Below are positions 13,391-30,665 of a stretch of 35,572 nt of DNA, piece by piece; positions within the stretch are counted from its first letter, which is position 1; every line of letters starts with the position of its first letter. The stretch covers positions 1-35,572 of the forward strand of contig JAPOTD010000074.1 of assembly GCA_026709365.1 (NCBI GenBank), read 5' to 3'. A program made the position numbers and the translations under genes. The notes under the pieces are model-generated. The model saw nothing but the letters and a program-made list of their open reading frames with translations. It searched no databases and was not told the DNA's origin. The stretch comes from Gammaproteobacteria bacterium (GTDB lineage Bacteria > Pseudomonadota > Gammaproteobacteria > Pseudomonadales > Azotimanducaceae).

Positions 13391-14608
13391 ATGAGTTCAC
13401 GCAGGCAATTCCTTAAGGCGGGCGCCCTAGGCACCGGTGCTGCGGCCATGACCCCGGCGCTGCCCCAAGCCGCGGTTCGGCGGGCGGATGCTGCCAATCA
13501 GGTGCGCCGCTACGTGACCTTGGGCCGCACCGGGCTGAAAATGTCCGATATCTCGTTCGGTTCCAGTCGGCTGCGCGAGGGTGAGGAGGATCTGGTCCGC
13601 CACGCCTTGGACAAGGGCGTCAACTACTTCGACACCGCCGAGGGCTACACGGACGGCCAATCGGAACGAGTGCTCGGCAACGTGCTCAGGGACGAGCGGG
13701 AACGCGTCATCATCGCCTCCAAGACCTTCGCCTCGGCGAGCGCGTCCAAGGAGCGCATCATGGGCGATCTGGAGGGCAGCCTAAAGCGCCTGCAAACCGA
13801 CCATGTGGACATCTACTTCAACCACGCCGTCAACGACCCTGACCGGCTCGACAACCCGGAGTGGCTCGAGTTCTGCGAGCGCGCCAAGCGGCAGGGCAAG
13901 ATTCGGTTCACCGGAATGTCCGGGCACGCCGGGCGTTTGGTGGAGTGCCTCGACCACGCCTTCGACCAGGACATGGTGGACGTGGTGCTGGTCTCCCTCA
14001 ACTTTGGCCAGGATCCCGAGTTCCACGAACGCTTCACCCGCGGCTTCGATCTGGTCGCCCGCCATCCGCAACTGCCGCGGGCCTTGCGCCGCGCCAAGGA
14101 ACTCGACGTGGGCGTCATCGCCATGAAGTGCCTGATGGGCGCGCGCCTGAACGACATGCGGCCCTACGAGCGGGACGGCGCCTCATTCGCCCAGGCGGCC
14201 TTCCGTTGGACGCTCTCCCAGCCCCATGTGGACGCCTTGGTCATCTCCATGACCTCAACCGCCAAAATCGACGAATTCCTGGGCGCATCGGCTGGGCAGT
14301 CCTTGGCCACCGGCGACGCCGCCCTGTTGCGCCGCTACGCCGCCTTGAACGGCGCAAGCCACTGTCGGCAAGGCTGCAGCGATTGCGTCGGCGCCTGCCC
14401 GTTCGACGTCCCCATCGCCGACGTGCTGCGCACCCGCATGTACGCCACGGACTACCAGGACCTGGACTTCGCCCGCCGTGAGTACGCCCAATTGGAGGTC
14501 AACGCCAGCGCCTGCCTCGGCTGCAGCGGGGCACCCTGCCAGGACGCCTGCAGCCACGGGCTGGCCATCGCCGAACTCTGCGCACCCACTCATCGGATGC
14601 TGGCCTGA
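13391..14608 (+). CDS. Tat-signal aldo/keto reductase with C-terminal Fe-S cluster motifs
   Basis: 405 residues. The N-terminus SRRQFLKAGALG is a twin-arginine signal (Arg4, Arg5) ending in a short hydrophobic stretch. The aldo/keto reductase barrel keeps the full catalytic tetrad Asp81, Tyr86, Lys111, His145. The C-terminus has two cysteine clusters: Cys325, 329, 332, 336 (CRQGCSDCVGACP) and Cys375, 378, 383, 387 (CLGCSGAPCQDAC). These suggest one or two iron-sulfur clusters. GGGAGG precedes ATG 13391. It heads a nine-gene operon, with larB 4 bp downstream. Tat export of an NAD(P)H-type fold with Fe-S clusters is odd, and the physiological electron partner is unknown. Confidence 0.85.
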   Translation: MSSRRQFLKAGALGTGAAAMTPALPQAAVRRADAANQVRRYVTLGRTGLKMSDISFGSSRLREGEEDLVRHALDKGVNYFDTAEGYTDGQSERVLGNVLRDERERVIIASKTFASASASKERIMGDLEGSLKRLQTDHVDIYFNHAVNDPDRLDNPEWLEFCERAKRQGKIRFTGMSGHAGRLVECLDHAFDQDMVDVVLVSLNFGQDPEFHERFTRGFDLVARHPQLPRALRRAKELDVGVIAMKCLMGARLNDMRPYERDGASFAQAAFRWTLSQPHVDALVISMTSTAKIDEFLGASAGQSLATGDAALLRRYAALNGASHCRQGCSDCVGACPFDVPIADVLRTRMYATDYQDLDFARREYAQLEVNASACLGCSGAPCQDACSHGLAIAELCAPTHRMLA

Positions 14609-14612
14609 AGAC

Positions 14613-15365
14613 ATGGCGCTGGACGACATTCTGGCCGCCTTCAAGGACGGCGCCATCGACTCCGATGAGGCAAGCCGTCGGATCCGCGCGTCCTTCTACC
14701 GGAATGTCGGCCAAGGCGGCGGAGGCCATTCGACCCTGGACAGCGACCGCCTGGCCCGCACGGGCGCCTCGGAGGTGATCTACGGGGCGGGCAAGAGCGC
14801 AGTCGAGATCGCCGAATTGGTCGAGGCCCTGGTCGAGGAAGGGCAAAATGCCTTGGTCACTCGAACCACCGTGGAGGCTTACGAACGGGTGATTGAACGC
14901 ACTGCCATCGCCCGTTACCACGAGGCGGCGGCAGCCATCACCGCCACCGTTCAGGAGCCTGCCGGCGTCGATGCCCTGGTCGCGGTCATCACTGCCGGCA
15001 CGTCGGATGCGCCGGTGGCGGAGGAGGCGGCGGTCACCGCCGCCTTTTACGGCAACCCGGTGCTGCGCGTGCGCGACGTGGGGGTCTCCGGCCTACACCG
15101 ACTGCTGGCCCGGCTCGACGAGATTCGCCAAGCGCGGGTGGTGATCGTCGTGGCCGGCATGGAAGGCGCCCTGCCCAGCGTGGTCGGCGGCTTGGTGGAG
15201 GCGCCGGTCATCAGCGTGCCCACCAGCGTCGGCTACGGGGCCGCCTTCGGCGGCGTCACGGCACTGCTGGGCATGCTGTCCAGCTGCGCGGCGGGCCTGG
15301 CCGTGGTCAACATCGACAACGGCTTCGGCGCCGGCTACCTCGCCCACAAGATCAATCGGCTTTGA
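14613..15365 (+). CDS. larB: LarB, pyridinium-3,5-biscarboxylate mononucleotide synthase
   Basis: 250 residues from ATG 14613. An upstream in-frame ATG at 14478 lies inside the previous gene and gives unlike sequence. LarB carboxylates nicotinic acid adenine dinucleotide and releases AMP, the first step of the nickel-pincer nucleotide cofactor. The PurE-like C-terminal half shows VAVITAGTSDAPVAEEA, VVAGMEGALPSVVGGLV and PVISVPTSVGYGAAFGG. Cys225 in LSSCAAGLAVVNIDNGFGAG matches the position of the cysteine reported to bind the pyridinium ring. Its end overlaps the larE start by 4 bp. LarC and LarA are not in the window. Confidence 0.93.
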   Translation: MALDDILAAFKDGAIDSDEASRRIRASFYRNVGQGGGGHSTLDSDRLARTGASEVIYGAGKSAVEIAELVEALVEEGQNALVTRTTVEAYERVIERTAIARYHEAAAAITATVQEPAGVDALVAVITAGTSDAPVAEEAAVTAAFYGNPVLRVRDVGVSGLHRLLARLDEIRQARVVIVVAGMEGALPSVVGGLVEAPVISVPTSVGYGAAFGGVTALLGMLSSCAAGLAVVNIDNGFGAGYLAHKINRL

Positions 15366-16207
15366 CCGTGGCGCTCCAACCGCTTTCCGGCGAACACGCC
15401 GCCAAGCTGGAAGCCCTCAAGGCCAGCCTGCGGGCGATGGACAGCGCCTTGGTCGCGTACTCGGGCGGCGTGGACAGTTCCTTGGTCGCCTTCCTGGCCG
15501 CCGAGGCTTTGGGTCCCAAGGCGCTGGCGGTCACCTCCGGCAGCGCCAGCCTCAAGCGCTCCGACCTAAGCCTGGCCAAACGCCTGGCCGGTGAGTGGGG
15601 CATGCGCCATCGAGTGATTGTCACCGACGAGCTCAGCAAGCCGGACTACCGCGCCAACCCGGTCAACCGCTGCTTCCACTGCAAGACCTCGCTGTACACG
15701 GCACTGGCGAACATGGCCCGGCAGGAGGGGTTTGCCGAAGTCCTGAACGGCACCAACACCGATGACCTCGGCGACCATCGGCCGGGCCTCATCGCCGCCC
15801 AGGACTTCGCCGTCCGCTCGCCCTTGGTGGAGGCGGACGTGGACAAGGCCGGGGTTCGCGCCTTGGCGGCCCATCTTGGCCTCGACAATGCCGGGAAGCC
15901 GCAGTCCGCCTGCCTGTCGAGCCGCTTCCCTTACGGCGCCTCGATCAGTGCCGAACGGCTTGCCCAGGTGGAGCGGGCCGAGGAGTGCCTGGCTCGGCTC
16001 GGCTTCGTTGAATTCCGGGTCCGCCACCACGAGGATGTCGCCCGCCTGGAGATTGGCGCTGACGAGCTCGGGCGGGCACTGGAGCTGCGCGATGCGCTGC
16101 AAGCCGAGATTCAGGCCTGCGGCTACCGCTTCGTTACCTTGGATCTTGGCGCCTTCCGCTCCGGATCATTGAACGAAGGCATCATCAAGGCGATCAACGT
16201 CAGATAG
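15362..16207 (+). CDS. larE: LarE, ATP-dependent sulfur transferase of nickel-pincer cofactor synthesis
   Basis: 281 residues from TTG 15362, overlapping the larB stop; GTG 15368 is an alternative. The PP-loop YSGGVDSS (Ser34-Ser40) binds ATP for adenylation of the pyridinium carboxylates. Three conserved cysteines, Cys104 and Cys107 (NRCFHCK) and Cys184 (SACLSSRFPYG), suggest the catalytic form that uses a [4Fe-4S] cluster, rather than the single-cysteine sacrificial form of Lactobacillus. That reading rests on cysteine number only. It is co-transcribed with larB and followed after 11 bp by a GNAT-like gene. Confidence 0.9.
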   Translation: MTVALQPLSGEHAAKLEALKASLRAMDSALVAYSGGVDSSLVAFLAAEALGPKALAVTSGSASLKRSDLSLAKRLAGEWGMRHRVIVTDELSKPDYRANPVNRCFHCKTSLYTALANMARQEGFAEVLNGTNTDDLGDHRPGLIAAQDFAVRSPLVEADVDKAGVRALAAHLGLDNAGKPQSACLSSRFPYGASISAERLAQVERAEECLARLGFVEFRVRHHEDVARLEIGADELGRALELRDALQAEIQACGYRFVTLDLGAFRSGSLNEGIIKAINVR

Positions 16208-16218
16208 GCGGAAGAACC

Positions 16219-17352
16219 TTGACCCTCGAAATCATCCCGGTGAGCAACAAGCGCCTGCTCAAGGCGTTCATCAAGGTGCCTTGGCCCATCTACAGGGACG
16301 ACGGCGCTTGGCGTGCGCCCTTGGTGATGGAGCGCTTGATGGCCCTCTCCCCGAAGTCGCCGGTGTTCGACCATTTGGACTGGCAGGCTTGGATCGCCCG
16401 ACGCGATGGCCGGCCGGTCGGCAGGATCACCGCCCAGATCGATGCCCTCCACCAAGCGCAGCACGATGAGGGCACGGGCTTCTTCGGGCTGATCGAGGGC
16501 GAGGATGACCCAGACCTGTTCGACACCCTGTTCAAGACCGCGGAGGATTGGCTGCGCCACCGGGGTATGCAGCGGATCATCGGCCCGATCAACCTGAACA
16601 TCAACCAGGAGATCGGGCTGCTCACCGAAGGCCACGACACCCCGCCCTACGTCATGATGGGCCACGCCCGTCCCTACTACCGTCAACGCATTGAGGCCCT
16701 AGGCTACCGGCCGTGCCAACACTTGCTCGCCTACGAAGCGGCGAACGCCTTTGAGGAGCCCCGAGCCATCGCCGCTCAGCGCAAACGGCTGGCGCGGCGC
16801 ATTGCGCTGCGGCCGTTGGACCGGGCCCGGAAGGCCGCGGACCTGGAACGGATGCGCAGCATCTTCAATGACGCCTGGGCGGACAACTGGGGCTTCGTGC
16901 CCTTCACCGAGCGGGAGTTTCAAGCCTTGGGCCAAGTGCTGTTGGCGGTGGTGCCGAACGACCTGATCTGGCTCGCCGAAATCGAGGGCGAAGCGGTGGG
17001 CTTCATCGTCATGCTGCCCAACATCAACGATGCGGTCGCCGACTTGAATGGCCGGCTGCTGCCGTGGGGATGGGCCAAGCTGCTGTGGCGGCTGAAGGCT
17101 CGGTTGCCGTCCAGCGGCCGGGTGCCGCTGATGGGCGTGCGCCGTCAACTGCAAGACGGCCCGCTCGGCGCCGGGGTCGCCATGAGCCTGATCCATCGAA
17201 CCGCCCAAGCCGCCTTGGGCCACGGCATCACCACCTCCGAGACCTCGTGGATACTTGAGGACAACAAGGGCATGCGGGCCATCATGGAGCGCATCGGCGG
17301 CGTGATCAGCAAGCGCTACACGGTGTACGAAAAGTCGCTGGTCCCGCCATGA
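16219..17352 (+). CDS. GNAT-fold acyltransferase family (often mislabelled dATP pyrophosphohydrolase); ceramide-synthase-like
   Basis: 377 residues from TTG 16219. Two GNAT-like halves are seen. The N-terminal one has WIARRDGRPVGRITAQIDAL and GFFGLIEGEDDPDLFDTLF, then RGMQRIIGPINLNINQEIGL. The C-terminal one has LAEIEGEAVGFIVMLPNIND and LGHGITTSETSWILEDNKGM. This architecture matches a proteobacterial family annotated in databases as dATP pyrophosphohydrolase. From memory it contains the bacterial ceramide synthase of Caulobacter, which N-acylates a sphingoid base. The gene is coupled by ATGA to a nucleotidyltransferase and then to a lipid kinase, which fits lipid acylation. The family assignment is fairly firm; the substrate is inferred. 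Confidence 0.7.
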   Translation: MTLEIIPVSNKRLLKAFIKVPWPIYRDDGAWRAPLVMERLMALSPKSPVFDHLDWQAWIARRDGRPVGRITAQIDALHQAQHDEGTGFFGLIEGEDDPDLFDTLFKTAEDWLRHRGMQRIIGPINLNINQEIGLLTEGHDTPPYVMMGHARPYYRQRIEALGYRPCQHLLAYEAANAFEEPRAIAAQRKRLARRIALRPLDRARKAADLERMRSIFNDAWADNWGFVPFTEREFQALGQVLLAVVPNDLIWLAEIEGEAVGFIVMLPNINDAVADLNGRLLPWGWAKLLWRLKARLPSSGRVPLMGVRRQLQDGPLGAGVAMSLIHRTAQAALGHGITTSETSWILEDNKGMRAIMERIGGVISKRYTVYEKSLVPP

Positions 17353-18266
17353 AGGCCGTCGTGCTGGCAGGAAGCCGTGCTGAGGAACGGCGCCTCGCGC
17401 CGTCTGAGGGCGGAAACCCGCTTCAGGCGGAACGCCTGTCTCGAGTGGGGTCGCGGAGCGAGGGCGGCCCGTCCTCAATGGGGCCGCAGGAGTGCGCTTC
17501 CGGCCAGGAAGCTGGAAGTGCGTTCCATGGAAGGCTCGGCGCAATGCGACCATCCCCCCTGACGCCGGTGGCGGGGATTCCCTCGCTCGTTCGGGTATTG
17601 CGGGCGCTGCGCGGCACCGAGGCGATCGACGGCGGCCTGCTGGCCGGCCCTGAGCAACGGCATGGCCAACATGCAGGCGCGGTCTCCAACCTGCTTGCCG
17701 CCGGGGACTTTGAGTGGACTGCGCCGGCGGCGGGGCCAGCCCAAAGCGCGCTCAAGGCCGTTCAGCAACTCGACACTTGGCCCATTCTGCTGACCACGGG
17801 CGACCACGCCCTCCTGACGGCGCCAACCATCGACAGCTTCTGCGCTGCGGCAGCCGTCCAGAACGCCGATTTGACGGTGGGCTTGGCGCCCCATCGCTTG
17901 GTCGCCGAGCGCTTTCCGGGCTTGAAGCGCACCCGGCTGCGCTTCGCCGACGGCCCCTATTGCGGCACCAACCTCTTCTACCTCCACAATGCCCGGGCGG
18001 CACGGGCCATCGCCTTCTGGATTGACGTGCAAGCCAACCGCAAGCGGCCCTGGCGAATCGTGCGGCGCTTCGGATTGCGCATCTTGGCTGCCTACGCCTG
18101 CGAGCGCTTGAGCGTCGATGGCGCTTTGGCCACAGCGTCCCGCTTGACCGACTGCTCCATCGGCTGGGTGGGCGTGTTGGATCCGGTTGCCGCCATTGAC
18201 GTGGACTCCGCCGCCGATCTTGAAGTTGCCGAACGGATACTGCGATGCCGGTCCCGCTCCTGTTGA
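17349..18266 (+). CDS. MobA-like NTP transferase with in-frame repeat insertion
   Basis: 305 residues, ATG overlapping the previous stop (ATGA). The N-terminal MKAVVLAGSR and the later TPVAGIPSLVRVLRALRG belong to a nucleotidyltransferase Rossmann fold. ILLTTGDHALLTAPTIDSF provides the metal-site Asp, and VLDPVAAIDVDSAADLEVAE the C-terminal signature. Between residues 11 and about 70 the protein reads like translated repeat DNA, and no lysine occurs where relatives have the conserved Lys before P-V-A-G. The protein is about 50 residues longer than usual. It may be inactive or altered, though the frame and couplings are preserved. A role in activating a headgroup for the neighbouring lipid kinase product is speculative. 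Confidence 0.65.
   Translation: MKAVVLAGSRAEERRLAPSEGGNPLQAERLSRVGSRSEGGPSSMGPQECASGQEAGSAFHGRLGAMRPSPLTPVAGIPSLVRVLRALRGTEAIDGGLLAGPEQRHGQHAGAVSNLLAAGDFEWTAPAAGPAQSALKAVQQLDTWPILLTTGDHALLTAPTIDSFCAAAAVQNADLTVGLAPHRLVAERFPGLKRTRLRFADGPYCGTNLFYLHNARAARAIAFWIDVQANRKRPWRIVRRFGLRILAAYACERLSVDGALATASRLTDCSIGWVGVLDPVAAIDVDSAADLEVAERILRCRSRSC
17379..17561 (+). repeat. repeat cluster inserted in frame within the NTP-transferase gene
   Basis: This stretch contains several short hairpins. It includes GGAGCGAGGGCGGCCCGTCC (from 17455), which recurs between genes at 22629-22651 (inverted) and 22683-22702. It also contains AGTGCGCTTCCGG paired with an imperfect inverted partner GGAAGTGCGTTCC (17490-17527). 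It replaces the conserved loop of the enzyme. The boundaries are estimated from where recognisable protein stops and resumes. Confidence 0.55.
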
Positions 18267-19090
18267 CCAACCCGAACGCAGGGCTCGGCGAACGCCAGCT
18301 CGCGTTTCCAGGGGAGCGCTTCGTGCTGGGCTCAGGGCCGCTTCCGGACCTGTCCCGCTTCAGCGTCCTGGTGCTTGCCGGTGGCGACGGCACCGTGCAG
18401 CGCACCCTGACCGAGGCTCTTGAGCTGACGCCGGCCAGCGCCCTGCCGCCCATTGCCGTGCTTCCGGCTGGACGCACCAACATGTCGGCGGTGGACATCA
18501 ATCACCACCGGCGCTTCACGCAGTGCGTCAAGGCGCTCGAGGCGATGCTGGACGGCGGAGTGCTGCCGCCAAGCACCACTCGGCCGCTCGTTCAGGTGGA
18601 CCAGGCCGACAGCCGCCAATACGGCTTGTTCTTCGGGCTGGGCGCGGTGTGCTTCGGGGTGGCTCATTGGAAAGGCGACCGCCCCGGCAGCCAGCTCGGC
18701 ACCACGTTGCGCACCGTTTGGTCCTCGGCAAAGGGCTACTTGGCCCCCAAGCATCAAACGGTCCGCTGGAACGGCGAGACCCGGCAGGTGTTTGCGATGA
18801 TCGCCACCTCCCTGAACCGGCTGCTCTTCGGCTGCCGTCCCTATTGGGGGGACGGCAAGGGGATGCACAACACCTGGGTGTTCGCCAACGCCCAAGGCCG
18901 GGTGCGGCGCAGCTTGCGGCTGCTCCGGGGCGATGCGTCCCTGGCCCGGCTGCCGGGCTACGCCAGCGGCAACCAAATCGACATCGAACTTGAGCTCGAC
19001 GGCCCGTACACCATTGACGGCGAGCTGTTCGAGAACCGGGGGCCGTTGCGGCTTTCCTTGAGCGAACCCTTGCGATGGCTGGCGCTGTGA
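18245..19090 (+). CDS. diacylglycerol/ceramide-kinase-like lipid kinase
   Basis: 281 residues. LLLTNPNAGLGE opens the DAGK catalytic domain, AGGDGT (Gly46-Thr50) is the nucleotide site, and LPAGRTNMSAVD replaces the usual PxGTxND loop. The C-terminal part YASGNQIDIELELDGPYTID followed by GELF is the usual lipid-kinase end. It overlaps the upstream gene by 22 bp and the downstream one by 16 bp. Proteins of this class phosphorylate diacylglycerol, sphingosine or, in Caulobacter, ceramide. Next to the GNAT-like gene a ceramide-type lipid is the favoured substrate, by inference only. Confidence 0.75.
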   Translation: MPVPLLLTNPNAGLGERQLAFPGERFVLGSGPLPDLSRFSVLVLAGGDGTVQRTLTEALELTPASALPPIAVLPAGRTNMSAVDINHHRRFTQCVKALEAMLDGGVLPPSTTRPLVQVDQADSRQYGLFFGLGAVCFGVAHWKGDRPGSQLGTTLRTVWSSAKGYLAPKHQTVRWNGETRQVFAMIATSLNRLLFGCRPYWGDGKGMHNTWVFANAQGRVRRSLRLLRGDASLARLPGYASGNQIDIELELDGPYTIDGELFENRGPLRLSLSEPLRWLAL

Positions 19091-19851
19091 ACAACCGGGG
19101 GGGCGGCGGGAGAGGCGGCGCGCCCAAGCCGCGGTTCGCAATCCGCTTGGGCAAGCTGGTCATGCGCGCCTTGGATGCCTTTCTCGCCCGCCACTCGCGC
19201 ATCGCCACCACGCCGTTCATTGATCGCAGCGCTTTTGCCTGGGTGCCCGTGCTGGAAGCCGAAGCCGCCGCCATCCGCGCCGAACTCAACGCCATCATGC
19301 GCCATCCCCAGGACATACCCACGTTCCATGAAATGTCGCCCGATCAAGTCCGCATCTCCAAGGGGGACAACTGGAGGACGTTCGTGATGCGCGTGTTTGG
19401 CCACCGGATCGACGACAACTGCGCCGCCTGCCCGAACACCGCAGCGCTCATCGACGCCCTGCCCGGCGTGCAGAACGCCTGGTTCTCGATTCTGGCCCCC
19501 GGCTACCACATCCCCCCCCACCGGGGACCGACCAAGGCCCTGGTGCGCTGCCACCTCGGCTTGCGGATTCCCGCCAACGCGGCGGACTGCTGGATTCGGG
19601 TGGGCGATCAGGTTCGCCAGTGGGAGGACGGCCGCTGCCTGCTGTTCGACGACACCTTTGAGCACGAGGTGCGCAACGACACCGCCGAATCCCGGGTGGT
19701 GCTGTTCCTGGACGTGGAGCGCCCCTTAAACGGCGCCGGGCAAGCCTGCCGAAAGCTGGTGCTGGCCCTGTTTCGGGCGACCGCCTACGTCAAGCGTCCG
19801 TTGGCCAACATCAAGCGCTGGAACCAAGGGCTGCGGGAAGGTGCTGACTGA
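19075..19851 (+). CDS. aspartyl/asparaginyl beta-hydroxylase-family Fe(II)/2-oxoglutarate oxygenase
   Basis: 258 residues. The double-stranded beta-helix core is clear: GYHIPPHRGPTKALVRCHLG with His149, then LLFDDTFEHEVRND with His197 as second iron ligand, and SRVVLFLD with Arg207 for 2-oxoglutarate. The N-terminal 70 residues contain a basic amphipathic stretch (RFAIRLGKLVMRALDAFLA) that may touch the membrane. Members of this family hydroxylate not only proteins but also lipid acyl chains (LpxO type). Its position after a lipid kinase and before a GMC oxidoreductase favours lipid hydroxylation. Confidence 0.8.
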   Translation: MAGAVNNRGGGGRGGAPKPRFAIRLGKLVMRALDAFLARHSRIATTPFIDRSAFAWVPVLEAEAAAIRAELNAIMRHPQDIPTFHEMSPDQVRISKGDNWRTFVMRVFGHRIDDNCAACPNTAALIDALPGVQNAWFSILAPGYHIPPHRGPTKALVRCHLGLRIPANAADCWIRVGDQVRQWEDGRCLLFDDTFEHEVRNDTAESRVVLFLDVERPLNGAGQACRKLVLALFRATAYVKRPLANIKRWNQGLREGAD

Positions 19852-21460
19852 CTTCGCCCAAGCCAAGGCACCCCGCGCCGCCCACGCCGATGTCTGCATC
19901 ATCGGCGCCGGCGCAGCCGGCATCACGCTGGCTCGAGGCTTGAGCGGCCAAGGTCTGCGCATCCTGCTGGTGGAGAGCGGCGGCTTGGACTACGGCCCCG
20001 AGAGCGCCGCCCTCGGCGTCGGCGAGAACGTCGGCGCGGCCTACTATCCACTTGAGGAGAGCCGCCTGCGGTTTTTCGGCGGCACTACCAACATCTGGGG
20101 CGGCCGCTGCGTCCCCTTGGACGAGATCGACTTTGCAGCGCGGGACTGGGTGGCGCACAGCGGCTGGCCCATTGAGGCGAAGGAACTGGCCGACGGCTAC
20201 CGCGCCGCCCACGCCGACTTGGGGCTGGGCGCCCTCGATGACGGCGCCGATGCCCAGCGCCGTTGGGGCGCACCTGCCCTGTCGATGAACGCCGCCCGCT
20301 TCACCAGCCGCTGCTGGCGCTTCGACCGGCAGCGAGAGCGCTTCCATGCCAAGCAGACCCAAGACGTGCTCAAGGCGCCGGACGTCGAAACGCTGATCAA
20401 CGCCACGGCCACGTGCCTCCAAGCCAACCCCGATCGTTCAGGCCTCGACCATGTGCTGGTGCGCAACGCGGACGGACATTCGGCAAGGATCAAGGCGCGC
20501 GCTTACGTGCTGGCTTGCGGCGGCATCGAGAACGCCCGCCTGCTGCTGGCCTCAAACGACGTGGAACCCCAGGGCATCGGCAACCGGCACGACCAAGTGG
20601 GGCGCTTCTTCATGGAACATCCCCATGGTCGCCTCGGCCGCATCCGCACCCGCAAGCCCTACCGTCTTTGGAACGCCTTCCGCATGCGCTTCCCGCCGGG
20701 CGGCATTCCCGTGGCGCCGGTGCTGCTGCCGACGCCCGCCCTGCAACGGGAGCGGGGCACGCTCAACACCGCCTTGACCTTCAAGTGGCAGCGCAATCCC
20801 GAAGCGGGCGTGCCCCGCGCCCGGCAGGCCTATCAGGCACTGAAGCACCAGCTGACGCCCGGACGCGGCAACCGGCGGCTCTGGCATGCCTACCGCGGGC
20901 TGCGATTCGCCTATGCGCGATCCCTGCGTCCGCTCGTCACCCGAGGCCTGATGCGGCTGCAGGACTTCCAACTCAGCGTCATGATCCGCGCTGAACAGGC
21001 GCCCAATCCCGCCAGCCGCGTCCTGCTCTCCACGCGCAAGGATGCGCTCGGCTGCGCCAAGGCGAACTTGGATTGGCGGCTTGGCGAACAGGACAAGCAC
21101 ACTCTGCGGGAGCTGGCAGATGCCCTGAACGAAGAGTTGGCGCGCCTCGATTTGGGCATTTTGGAGCCCTCGCCTTGGCTGGATGAACCCGGCCTCGATT
21201 GGCCCGTGGACGACACGGTGGGCAACCACCCCATCGGCGGCTATCACCATGCGGGCACCACCCGCATGAGCGCCGACCCGACTGATGGGGTAGTTGACCG
21301 CAGCTGCGCCGCCCACGGCTATCCCAACCTCTACATCCTTGGCAGTTCCGTGTTCCCCACTGCCGGCTGGGCCAACCCCACCCTGACCATCCTGGCATTG
21401 GCGCACCGCTTGAAGGCCCATCTGCTGCGCGAGCTCAAAAAAATATCGAATCTGGCCTAA
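19841..21460 (+). CDS. GMC-family FAD-dependent oxidoreductase
   Basis: 539 residues from GTG 19841, overlapping the oxygenase gene by 11 bp. ADVCIIGAGAAGITLARGL is the FAD Rossmann motif, with ESGG at the strand 2 end, and GGTTNIWGGRCVPLDEIDFA is characteristic of the GMC-like subgroup. The C-terminal GYHHAGTTRMSADP (His469/His470) and SVFPTAGWANPTLT (Asn512) hold the catalytic His-Asn pair. It oxidises an alcohol group. As last gene of the operon it could act on the hydroxyl introduced by the upstream oxygenase or on a long-chain base. No signal peptide is seen. Confidence 0.82.
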   Translation: MLTDFAQAKAPRAAHADVCIIGAGAAGITLARGLSGQGLRILLVESGGLDYGPESAALGVGENVGAAYYPLEESRLRFFGGTTNIWGGRCVPLDEIDFAARDWVAHSGWPIEAKELADGYRAAHADLGLGALDDGADAQRRWGAPALSMNAARFTSRCWRFDRQRERFHAKQTQDVLKAPDVETLINATATCLQANPDRSGLDHVLVRNADGHSARIKARAYVLACGGIENARLLLASNDVEPQGIGNRHDQVGRFFMEHPHGRLGRIRTRKPYRLWNAFRMRFPPGGIPVAPVLLPTPALQRERGTLNTALTFKWQRNPEAGVPRARQAYQALKHQLTPGRGNRRLWHAYRGLRFAYARSLRPLVTRGLMRLQDFQLSVMIRAEQAPNPASRVLLSTRKDALGCAKANLDWRLGEQDKHTLRELADALNEELARLDLGILEPSPWLDEPGLDWPVDDTVGNHPIGGYHHAGTTRMSADPTDGVVDRSCAAHGYPNLYILGSSVFPTAGWANPTLTILALAHRLKAHLLRELKKISNLA

Positions 21461-21467
21461 GCGAGGA

Positions 21468-21520
21468 GCGCGGAGTTTCGCGCCAGCGAAACTCCAACCG
21501 CGCCGGCTTCGCGGGTGCGC
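21468..21520 (+). repeat. dispersed palindromic repeat, family A copy 3
   Basis: GCGCGGAGTTTCGCG and the matching arm GCGAAACTCC (21472-21495) are identical to the copy at 2347-2370 apart from one loop base. It is followed by AACCGC and an imperfect GC hairpin to 21520. It starts 8 bp after the GMC stop codon, so its stem could end or protect the operon transcript. Confidence 0.75.
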
Positions 21521-21554
21521 ATCTGCTTGCCGCACGGGACATCCGTCGTCCTTA

Positions 21555-21709
21555 GGGAGCCTCTGACCAAGTCCCGTTCGTCCAGCGCTTCACGACTTGC
21601 GGATCGAAACGGTCCCGCGAGGCGGCGCTCCATCCGGAGGCGGAGCGGAATTCAGGCCGCAGATGCCGTGGGGCGCTCTGATCTTCCCGGACTTAATCAG
21701 AGAGGCTCC
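21555..21709. mobile_element. 155-bp MITE-like element with about 20-bp terminal inverted repeats
   Basis: The left end GGGAGCCTCTGACCAAGTCC (21555-21574) and the right end GGACTTAATCAGAGAGGCTC (21689-21708, plus C) are inverted copies with a few differences. They resemble IS5-group termini (GAGCCTCTGATTAAGTCC-like). No transposase frame fits inside. TTA precedes and TTG follows, compatible with an eroded 3-bp target duplication. It is probably an old non-autonomous derivative. Confidence 0.5.
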
Positions 21710-21823
21710 TTGGTGTCCTGCCCCAAGTTGGGCTTCTGAAGTGCGCCCTCGGTCGGGATGCTGCGCATCTGATTCATGGGCGGCTTCAACCCGGCATCAA
21801 GGCAAATCGATTAAACTGGAACG

Positions 21824-22564
21824 ATGAAAGTGATCGTTCTTTCCGCCGGCCAAGGCAAGCGGCTGCTGCCGTTGACCGAGGGCCGTCCCAAGTGCGCCTT
21901 GATGCTGGGCGAACGAACCGTGCTCGGCTGGCAGTTGGAGGCATTGGCGGCCGCCGGTGCCACCGAAGTGGTGGTGGCCACGGGCTTTCGCGCGGGGCTC
22001 ATCGGCCAACTCATCGACGGCTATGCCAAACTTGTCGTTCGCACGGCCCACAATCCCTTCTACGCCCACTGCGACAATCTTGGCACCTGCTGGGTGGTGC
22101 GCCATGAAATGACCGACCCGTTCGTCATCGTCAACGGCGACACCCTGTTCGAGCCCGAGGTCTTTGCCCGGCTGATCAACAGCCCGGACGACCATCCCAT
22201 CACCTTGGTCACCAACCTCAAGGACGGCTACGACGATGACGACATGAAGGTGATCGTCTGCGGCAACGAACTCAAGCAGGTGGACAAGAAGCTGCCCGCC
22301 AGCGAGGTTCACGGCGAGTCCATCGGCATGATCCGCTTCCAAGGTGACGGCCCTAGGCTTTTCCGGGAGCGGCTTGAATCGATGATGGCCGTGGAGTCCA
22401 CCTTGGGCCGTTGGTATCTGTCCGCCATCGACGCCTTGGCCGCCCAAGGCCATGTGGGCGTAGTCACCACCGGCAGCCATGACTGGTGCGAGATCGACGA
22501 CCGCAAGGACTTGGAGCACGCCCGCGCCACCGTGCCTCTGTGGTTTAAGGAGACATGCCTGTAA
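21824..22564 (+). CDS. phosphocholine-cytidylyltransferase-like sugar/alcohol nucleotidyltransferase
   Basis: 246 residues. MKVIVLSAGQGKRLLPLTEG with the following RPKC is the nucleotidyltransferase signature (Gly-rich loop, Arg, Lys). FYAHCDNLGTCWVVRHEM and FVIVNGDTLFEPEVF (metal Asp) resemble the LicC-type phosphocholine cytidylyltransferase branch rather than sugar-1-phosphate enzymes. TTGSHDWCEIDDRKDLEHAR ends the domain. It would form a CDP-alcohol for transfer to a lipid or glycan. It follows the lipid-tailoring operon on the same strand, separated by a MITE, and may originally have been part of it. Confidence 0.75.
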   Translation: MKVIVLSAGQGKRLLPLTEGRPKCALMLGERTVLGWQLEALAAAGATEVVVATGFRAGLIGQLIDGYAKLVVRTAHNPFYAHCDNLGTCWVVRHEMTDPFVIVNGDTLFEPEVFARLINSPDDHPITLVTNLKDGYDDDDMKVIVCGNELKQVDKKLPASEVHGESIGMIRFQGDGPRLFRERLESMMAVESTLGRWYLSAIDALAAQGHVGVVTTGSHDWCEIDDRKDLEHARATVPLWFKETCL

Positions 22565-30563: not shown

Positions 30564-30665
30564 CGCACCCGCTTTGCGGGTGCGTTGGAGTTTCGCTGGC
30601 GCGAAACTCCGTGCCGGTTGCGTCGGGTCGGGTTCGATGTGTTCACCCGCTCCGCGGGTGCGTGT
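30564..30665 (-). repeat. composite dispersed palindromic repeat, family A copy 4 (inverted)
   Basis: Read on the minus strand it gives a CACCCGC / GCGGGTG hairpin (30644-30660), then ACATCGAACCCGACCC and GCAAC. The GGAGTTTCGC / GCGAAACTCC hairpin (30587-30610) and a CGCACCCGC / GCGGGTGCG hairpin (30564-30584) follow. The central order is the same as at 2315-2398, while the flanking hairpins differ. It lies between the divergent dienelactone hydrolase and phoB genes. Confidence 0.8.

Follow-up and report, generated by a model that had tools for sequence, protein, structure and literature searches.

A gammaproteobacterial operon related to the Caulobacter ceramide phosphoglycerate pathway carries genes for a candidate acyl-chain oxygenase and a GMC-family dehydrogenase

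We analysed a 35,572-nucleotide stretch of DNA (the window) from a gammaproteobacterium of the family Azotimanducaceae (assembly GCA_026709365.1, contig JAPOTD010000074.1), in which a head-to-tail series of genes, all on the + strand, resembles one half of a bacterial sphingolipid pathway. The window is an entire contig, here C87, of a 3.70 Mb assembly of 144 contigs that is 95.7% complete. A first-pass annotation had described five overlapping genes and a sixth downstream, and the coordinates, families and overlaps (4–22 bases) were all confirmed. The series opens with a tandem-GNAT N-acyltransferase of the CerS/YghO type, a candidate ceramide synthase (16219–17352; PF00583, 27.8 bits against a curated cut-off of 20.7), followed by a MobA/CofC-like nucleotidyltransferase of the CC_1153 type (17349–18266; PF12804, 30.8 against 27), a diacylglycerol/ceramide-type lipid kinase (18245–19090; PF00781, 35.7 against 23.6), a 2-oxoglutarate oxygenase of the aspartyl/asparaginyl hydroxylase type, candidate for N-acyl-chain hydroxylation (19075–19851; PF05118, 176 against 22.6), and a flavin adenine dinucleotide (FAD) dehydrogenase of the GMC family, putatively an added tailoring enzyme (19841–21460; PF05199, 76.6 against 24.6). 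Consecutive genes overlap by 4, 22, 16 and 11 bases. The sixth gene, 363 bases further on, encodes a predicted CTP:phosphoglycerate cytidylyltransferase (21824–22564; PF12804, 48.6 against 27); it had been called LicC-like and is indeed of the cytidylyltransferase type, although the better likeness is to CpgD. Since five of 17 relatives’ loci (L039, L040, L044, L047 and L049) keep the full set of six, collinear and on one strand, the grouping is not due to chance; at least one of the six is missing from the other 12, partly through contig ends.

The assignment of the GNAT protein to the ceramide synthase family held up. It is 48% identical to Escherichia coli YghO over 376 residues, 52% identical to an Azotobacter vinelandii protein and 47–52% identical to its counterparts in six named clusters, and no second copy was matched in the genome at E 1. 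Among the genes required for dihydroceramide synthesis, PMC9386255 lists E. coli yghO (ECD_02850) alongside CC_1154, which encodes the ceramide synthase of Caulobacter (this and the other articles cited here are used in excerpt). Relatives of the GNAT gene adjoin spt, acpR, cerR and aasR on a Pseudomonas veronii plasmid and in E. coli, Pseudomonas sp. BYT-5 and Klebsiella michiganensis, as well as in Azotobacter; in Roseomonas gilardii the relative lies near a kinase and a cytidine diphosphate (CDP)-alcohol transferase gene and is overlapped by a sterol-desaturase-family gene (apart from Azotobacter, these named examples were chosen from 44 plasmid records with a GNAT match). Structural comparison, proposed as a check by the first-pass annotation, returned the tandem-GNAT fold with MAB_4324 and glucosamine acetyltransferases as best matches and no bacterial ceramide synthase among the rows shown. 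Taken by the letter, these best matches are non-lipid enzymes, but a fold common to the GNAT protein and non-lipid acetyltransferases does not decide the substrate. A sequence profile run against solved structures gave a single match, at E 0.074.

The genes that would supply the sphingoid base lie outside the window. A genome search for serine palmitoyltransferase and a CerR-type reductase had been suggested, with the lack of any sphingoid-base synthase to count against a sphingolipid, and at first this lack seemed real: PF00155 and TIGR01825 searches of the genome found no intact serine palmitoyltransferase. PF00155 gave 11 matches, none of whose frames, read by eye, resembled an alpha-oxoamine synthase (AOS), and with TIGR01825 there was no match at E 1e-20 (this search detects the Caulobacter and Bacteroides controls but also proteins of E. 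coli and others, and thus reports the AOS family, not serine palmitoyltransferase alone). CerR, AasR and AcpR are nonetheless encoded on a second contig, C58, in the order aasR-cerR-acpR (acpR at C58:274–38), the CerR being 38–43% identical to those of five named clusters. There follows the start of spt: an ATG at C58:41 opens a frame of 13 codons, MSLLAKLAAVEEA, that runs up to the contig end, the counterpart in the same-genus genome G057 being MSLLAKFAAVEEA. Because C58 matches the G057 region to its very end (aasR 89% and cerR 77% identical) and the first 13 codons are present, we concluded from these sequences that the spt gene is probably cut by the assembly and its body absent from the contigs. 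With spt starting at the end of C58, directly after aasR-cerR-acpR, in a 144-contig assembly, we do not take the missing gene as evidence against the pathway. A full AOS gene is present in both same-genus genomes, G033 and G057. A fusion of acyl carrier protein (ACP) and Spt, suggested by a 467-residue open frame in G057, was rejected: the ACP lies in a different frame and overlaps the spt start. The end of contig C143 carries a dispersed repeat and, as far as it is readable, lacks the gene that synteny predicts, and its adjacency to C58 is unsupported.

For a wider view we used 61 genomes of the family, drawn from a larger group, of which 18 carry the GNAT gene and 43 do not. An AOS match at E 1e-20 was found in 15 of the 18 (none in G000, G026 and G036) and in six of the 13 GNAT-less genomes included in the search. 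In six family genomes the AOS gene lies 10–14 kb from the GNAT gene on the same contig, measured start to start; a near-complete set stands together in G012, G015, G019 and G055, G011 being without kinase and GMC and G003 having less.

The headgroup predicted from the CpgD-like gene is phosphoglycerate. CpgD makes CDP-glycerate (PMC12275187), and its contact residues are given in a preprint (PMC13228409). The window protein, 45–46% identical to cluster genes of A. vinelandii and Pseudomonas BYT-5, has counterparts for 12 of the 13 published residues at offsets of 3–6, as matched by eye without an alignment to the Caulobacter sequence: G12, R16, K26, N90, T93, N110, G111, D112, M147, K161, S170 and W201 of CpgD correspond to G9, R13, K23, N85, T88, N104, G105, D106, M141, K155, S166 and W197. 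The one without a counterpart, T88, makes a backbone contact and is C83 here. These correspondences are suggestive of a CpgD identity. The kinase is the CpgB candidate by family and motif: its GGDGT is invariant in 15 of 15 aligned proteins, and its profile matches bacterial diacylglycerol and lipid kinases best among solved structures, with sphingosine kinase 1 at E 1e-4. The MobA-like protein is 36–38% identical to cluster genes of Pseudomonas BYT-5 and A. vinelandii; its Caulobacter type, CC_1153, is needed there for CPG2, as a mutant shows (PMC11324152). A third contig, C85, carries at 14674–21479 relatives of a flippase, a CDP-alcohol transferase, a calcineurin-type phosphoesterase, LptG, LptF and an LptA-like protein, together with a gene (c13) that matches no family and that, by elimination, is our candidate for CC_1161/CpgC. 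The CpgA-type CDP-alcohol transferase and the CC_1161 candidate on C85 and the kinase, CpgD and CC_1153 types in the window all match A. vinelandii genes, a statement of homology only.

Taken together, the three loci resemble the Caulobacter crescentus region CC_1168–CC_1152 in having CerS-, CC_1153- and CpgD-type genes, the ceramide kinase type, a CDP-alcohol transferase, the CC_1161 candidate, a phosphoesterase, an LptF/LptG pair, a flippase, aasR-cerR-acpR and the spt start; they differ from it in being spread over three contigs and in the addition of the PF05118 oxygenase and the GMC gene. In A. vinelandii, 13 of 16 proteins of this lineage (15 from this genome, the AOS from G057) have relatives within 13.6 kb, the stretch giving no match for GMC, phosphoesterase or flippase. 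This agrees with the report that at least 13 of 17 Caulobacter genes have good A. vinelandii orthologues, those lacking being the phosphoesterase, the flippase and two others (PMC11324152). The Azotobacter and Pseudomonas clusters (L170, L114 and L111) share most of the set, including a PF05118 oxygenase at 42–53% identity, but the GMC gene is missing from those stretches and, at E 1e-50, from the whole A. vinelandii genome; the P. veronii stretch also gave no match for the MobA-like gene, CpgD, the CDP-alcohol transferase or c13. The E. coli yghO region (L113) likewise has the YghO-type GNAT beside aasR, cerR, acpR, spt and LptF/LptG; unlike the present system, its 25 kb gave no match at E 1e-4 for kinase, MobA-like gene, CpgD, CDP-alcohol transferase, oxygenase or GMC.

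We therefore read the operon, with a probability of roughly 85%, as the predicted second half of a Caulobacter-type ceramide (di)phosphoglycerate pathway to which two oxidising enzymes have been added, the pathway being spread over the window, C58 and C85. In relatives it is established that AasR charges AcpR with a fatty acid, which Spt then condenses with serine, that CerS and CerR finish building the ceramide, that CpgB adds a phosphate to it and that CDP-glycerate is supplied by CpgD; the same steps would run here, and the LptFG set would carry the product to the outer membrane. The earlier suggestion of a hydroxylated sphingolipid or N-acyl lipid with a headgroup thus fares well as to the sphingolipid and gains a likely headgroup, phosphoglycerate; hydroxylation by the oxygenase is an inference.

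Several observations weigh against this reading. This assembly contains no intact spt. Orthology with Caulobacter was drawn indirectly, by way of E. coli YghO, A. vinelandii and statements in the literature; an AOS match can also stem from another member of that enzyme family; and G026 and G036 carry the GNAT gene but gave no AOS match at E 1e-20. A HIT-type gene that belongs to the family clusters did not turn up in the stretches fetched from this genome. The MobA-like gene contains, within 17378–17555, an in-frame insert of about 44 codons that is missing from both same-genus genomes. It holds one copy of a palindromic repeat (GAGCGAGGGCG...CCCTC type) that is dispersed in the genome, where more copies occur, and it stands directly after LAGSRA, in what we take to be the nucleotide-binding region, so that the gene may be damaged. 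Furthermore, nine clusters (L119, L122, L123, L126, L128, L130–L132 and L150) gave no tblastn match for the kinase at E 1e-4, a diverged or unlinked kinase not having been searched for. The same nine have CpgD and mostly the CDP-alcohol transferase. In such clusters the CDP-alcohol enzyme might load ceramide directly. Finally, among the 49 GNAT-bearing genomes from the best 80 of 579 confirmed GNAT loci (named records), 38 lack a GMC at 48% identity.

The oxygenase has OlsC (NF052565) as its best NCBIfam match, at 200 bits against a cut-off of 450, and scores 122 bits for LpxO (NF033391; cut-off 500), and thus falls below membership in either. LpxO and OlsC hydroxylate acyl chains. In Caulobacter, the N-acyl chain is reported to be hydroxylated by CC_0202, an unrelated enzyme of the DesA family encoded elsewhere in the genome (PMC11324152), unlike the present candidate within the operon. 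By analogy with both, the oxygenase may hydroxylate the N-acyl chain, with C2 the probable position, and so do the same job as the DesA-type enzyme; we give action at C2 of that chain about an even chance. The first-pass annotation knew of no pathway combining such an oxygenase with a GMC enzyme. The oxygenase is not unique to this cluster, since records of Azotobacter and Pseudomonas already place relatives in predicted sphingolipid clusters; for the GMC gene the claim of novelty stands, within open-licence literature, whose excerpts brought to light neither a GMC nor a PF05118-type enzyme in bacterial sphingolipid synthesis. In the family sample, the oxygenase at 49% identity or more occurs in the same ten GNAT-bearing genomes as the GMC and in the GNAT-less G035 and G059 (Fisher p 2e-5 for co-occurrence with GNAT, relatedness uncorrected). 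At E 1e-60 or better it was found in 17 of the 49 wider genomes, with one more at 1.3e-60.

The pathway itself is known, and the GMC gene is its new element in this cluster. Described earlier as an alcohol oxidase, its product does belong to the GMC family, but oxidase activity is unsupported: the closest solved relatives, at about 23% identity, are the large subunits of FAD-dependent fructose and glucose dehydrogenases. It shares with these the GMC fold and the conserved His and Asn that act at the flavin in GMC enzymes (H469, H470 and N512, invariant in 14 of 14); unlike them it has no gene for a cytochrome or a small subunit close by, and no signal peptide is evident by eye. A GMC of at least 49% identity is present in 10 of the 18 GNAT-bearing family genomes and in none of the 43 others (best match there 39%, in G029; Fisher p 5e-7, relatedness uncorrected), and lies in the cluster in nine of the ten, G011 having it on another contig. 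Among the best 80 of 579 loci, the fetched stretches contain a GMC in 12, the oxygenase in 17 and an AOS in 41, counts that are lowered by contig ends. Two of the 12 GMCs are distant and give no match at E 1e-50; they belong to the Gemmatimonadetes loci L171, where the match covers 74 residues, and L172. Both loci also have AOS, AasR, GNAT and kinase, but gave no CerR match. Genome-wide, 11 of the 49 genomes have a GMC at 48% identity or more, eight in the cluster and three elsewhere. The gene stands on the same strand directly before cpgD, or on the opposite strand between the MobA-like gene and cpgD (L123, L126, L131 and L132). L158 has it between spt and cerR, with 12 bases separating it from the spt match. 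That it recurs at different places in the cluster favours a pathway role, and the enzyme probably acts on some part of this lipid. Very tentatively, it may oxidise one lipid hydroxyl, most likely in the headgroup or the hydroxylated chain, although any single position has little weight; the resemblance to sugar and polyol dehydrogenases tips the balance towards the headgroup.

Three other explanations were weighed. The oxygenase’s best score, that for OlsC, would suit a cluster in which the GNAT acylates another amine and an OlsC-like oxygenase hydroxylates the resulting ornithine-lipid-like aminolipid, no sphingoid base being involved; the lack of an intact AOS-family enzyme in this genome, G026 and G036 points the same way. 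We regard this as very improbable, given the spt start on C58 and the AOS of both same-genus genomes, the AOS within reach in half of the named GNAT loci (41 of 80, contig ends limiting) and an oxygenase score below the OlsC cut-off. That the core is the ceramide phosphoglycerate pathway and the oxygenase and GMC are passengers acting on another molecule is a less remote idea, if still an unlikely one. Both enzymes stand outside the Caulobacter gene set as excerpted from PMC11324152; the GMC is unlinked in one of ten family genomes and three of 11 others, and the close oxygenase is unlinked in three of ten and present in two GNAT-less genomes. Speaking against passengers are the overlapping reading frames, the varied cluster positions, the fact that within the family the close GMC type occurs in genomes with the GNAT gene and in no others and, in R. 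gilardii, the overlap of the GNAT gene with the sterol-desaturase-family gene, another possible kind of hydroxylase.

Alternatively, the two enzymes could act in series, the GMC turning a 2-hydroxyacyl into a 2-oxoacyl chain. This we doubt to a similar degree. It would explain why all ten GMC-bearing GNAT genomes of the family have a close oxygenase and the other eight have neither at 49% identity, but such strict coupling, true of the family sample, fails in the wider set: G066, G069, G074 and G075 combine the GMC with no oxygenase above 39% identity, and in several genomes the oxygenase occurs where the GMC is absent. Mapped on a GNAT tree of 63 rows, the presence of the GMC requires eight changes and that of the oxygenase 12; of five independent pairs, about 3.8 have the oxygenase following the GMC and 0.0 have it opposed (sign test p 0.125, five pairs being too few to reach 0.05). 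The resemblance of the GMC to sugar and polyol dehydrogenases also points more to the headgroup.

On the preferred reading, of a ceramide phosphoglycerate pathway with two tailoring enzymes, the gene set shows what travels with the pathway outside the Alphaproteobacteria, names two candidate tailoring enzymes, one an unexplained flavoenzyme, and, through the clusters without a detected kinase, bears on how phosphoglycerate gets attached. Such anionic sphingolipids are reported to help Caulobacter survive without lipopolysaccharide (PMC12275187). Tentatively, and with more doubt than confidence, we propose a distinct class of outer-membrane phosphosphingolipids in a mostly uncultured gammaproteobacterial lineage, bearing an oxidised group (keto, aldehyde or acid) introduced by the dedicated GMC on top of acyl hydroxylation.

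Upstream of the operon, 13391–16207 encodes an aldo-keto reductase with a twin-arginine (TAT) signal and weak 4Fe-4S matches, followed by LarB and LarE of the nickel pincer cofactor, both above their NCBIfam cut-offs. LarE ends 11 bases before the GNAT start. The order of the three genes is kept in G033 and G057, with other DNA before the GNAT gene; because 3.0 and 4.5 kb, respectively, separate LarE from GNAT there, we rejected LarB and LarE as operon members and place them probably outside the system. A second dispersed palindromic repeat (GGAGTTTCGC...GCGAAACTCC) occurs at 2315–2376, 21448–21501 and 30584–30642, the middle copy falling in the 363-base gap 5' of the cpgD-like gene. The spacer between matching parts at this gap is about 40 bases in G033, about 110 in G057 and about 396 here. 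At the left contig end, 6–140 consists of three tandem copies of a 45-base unit.

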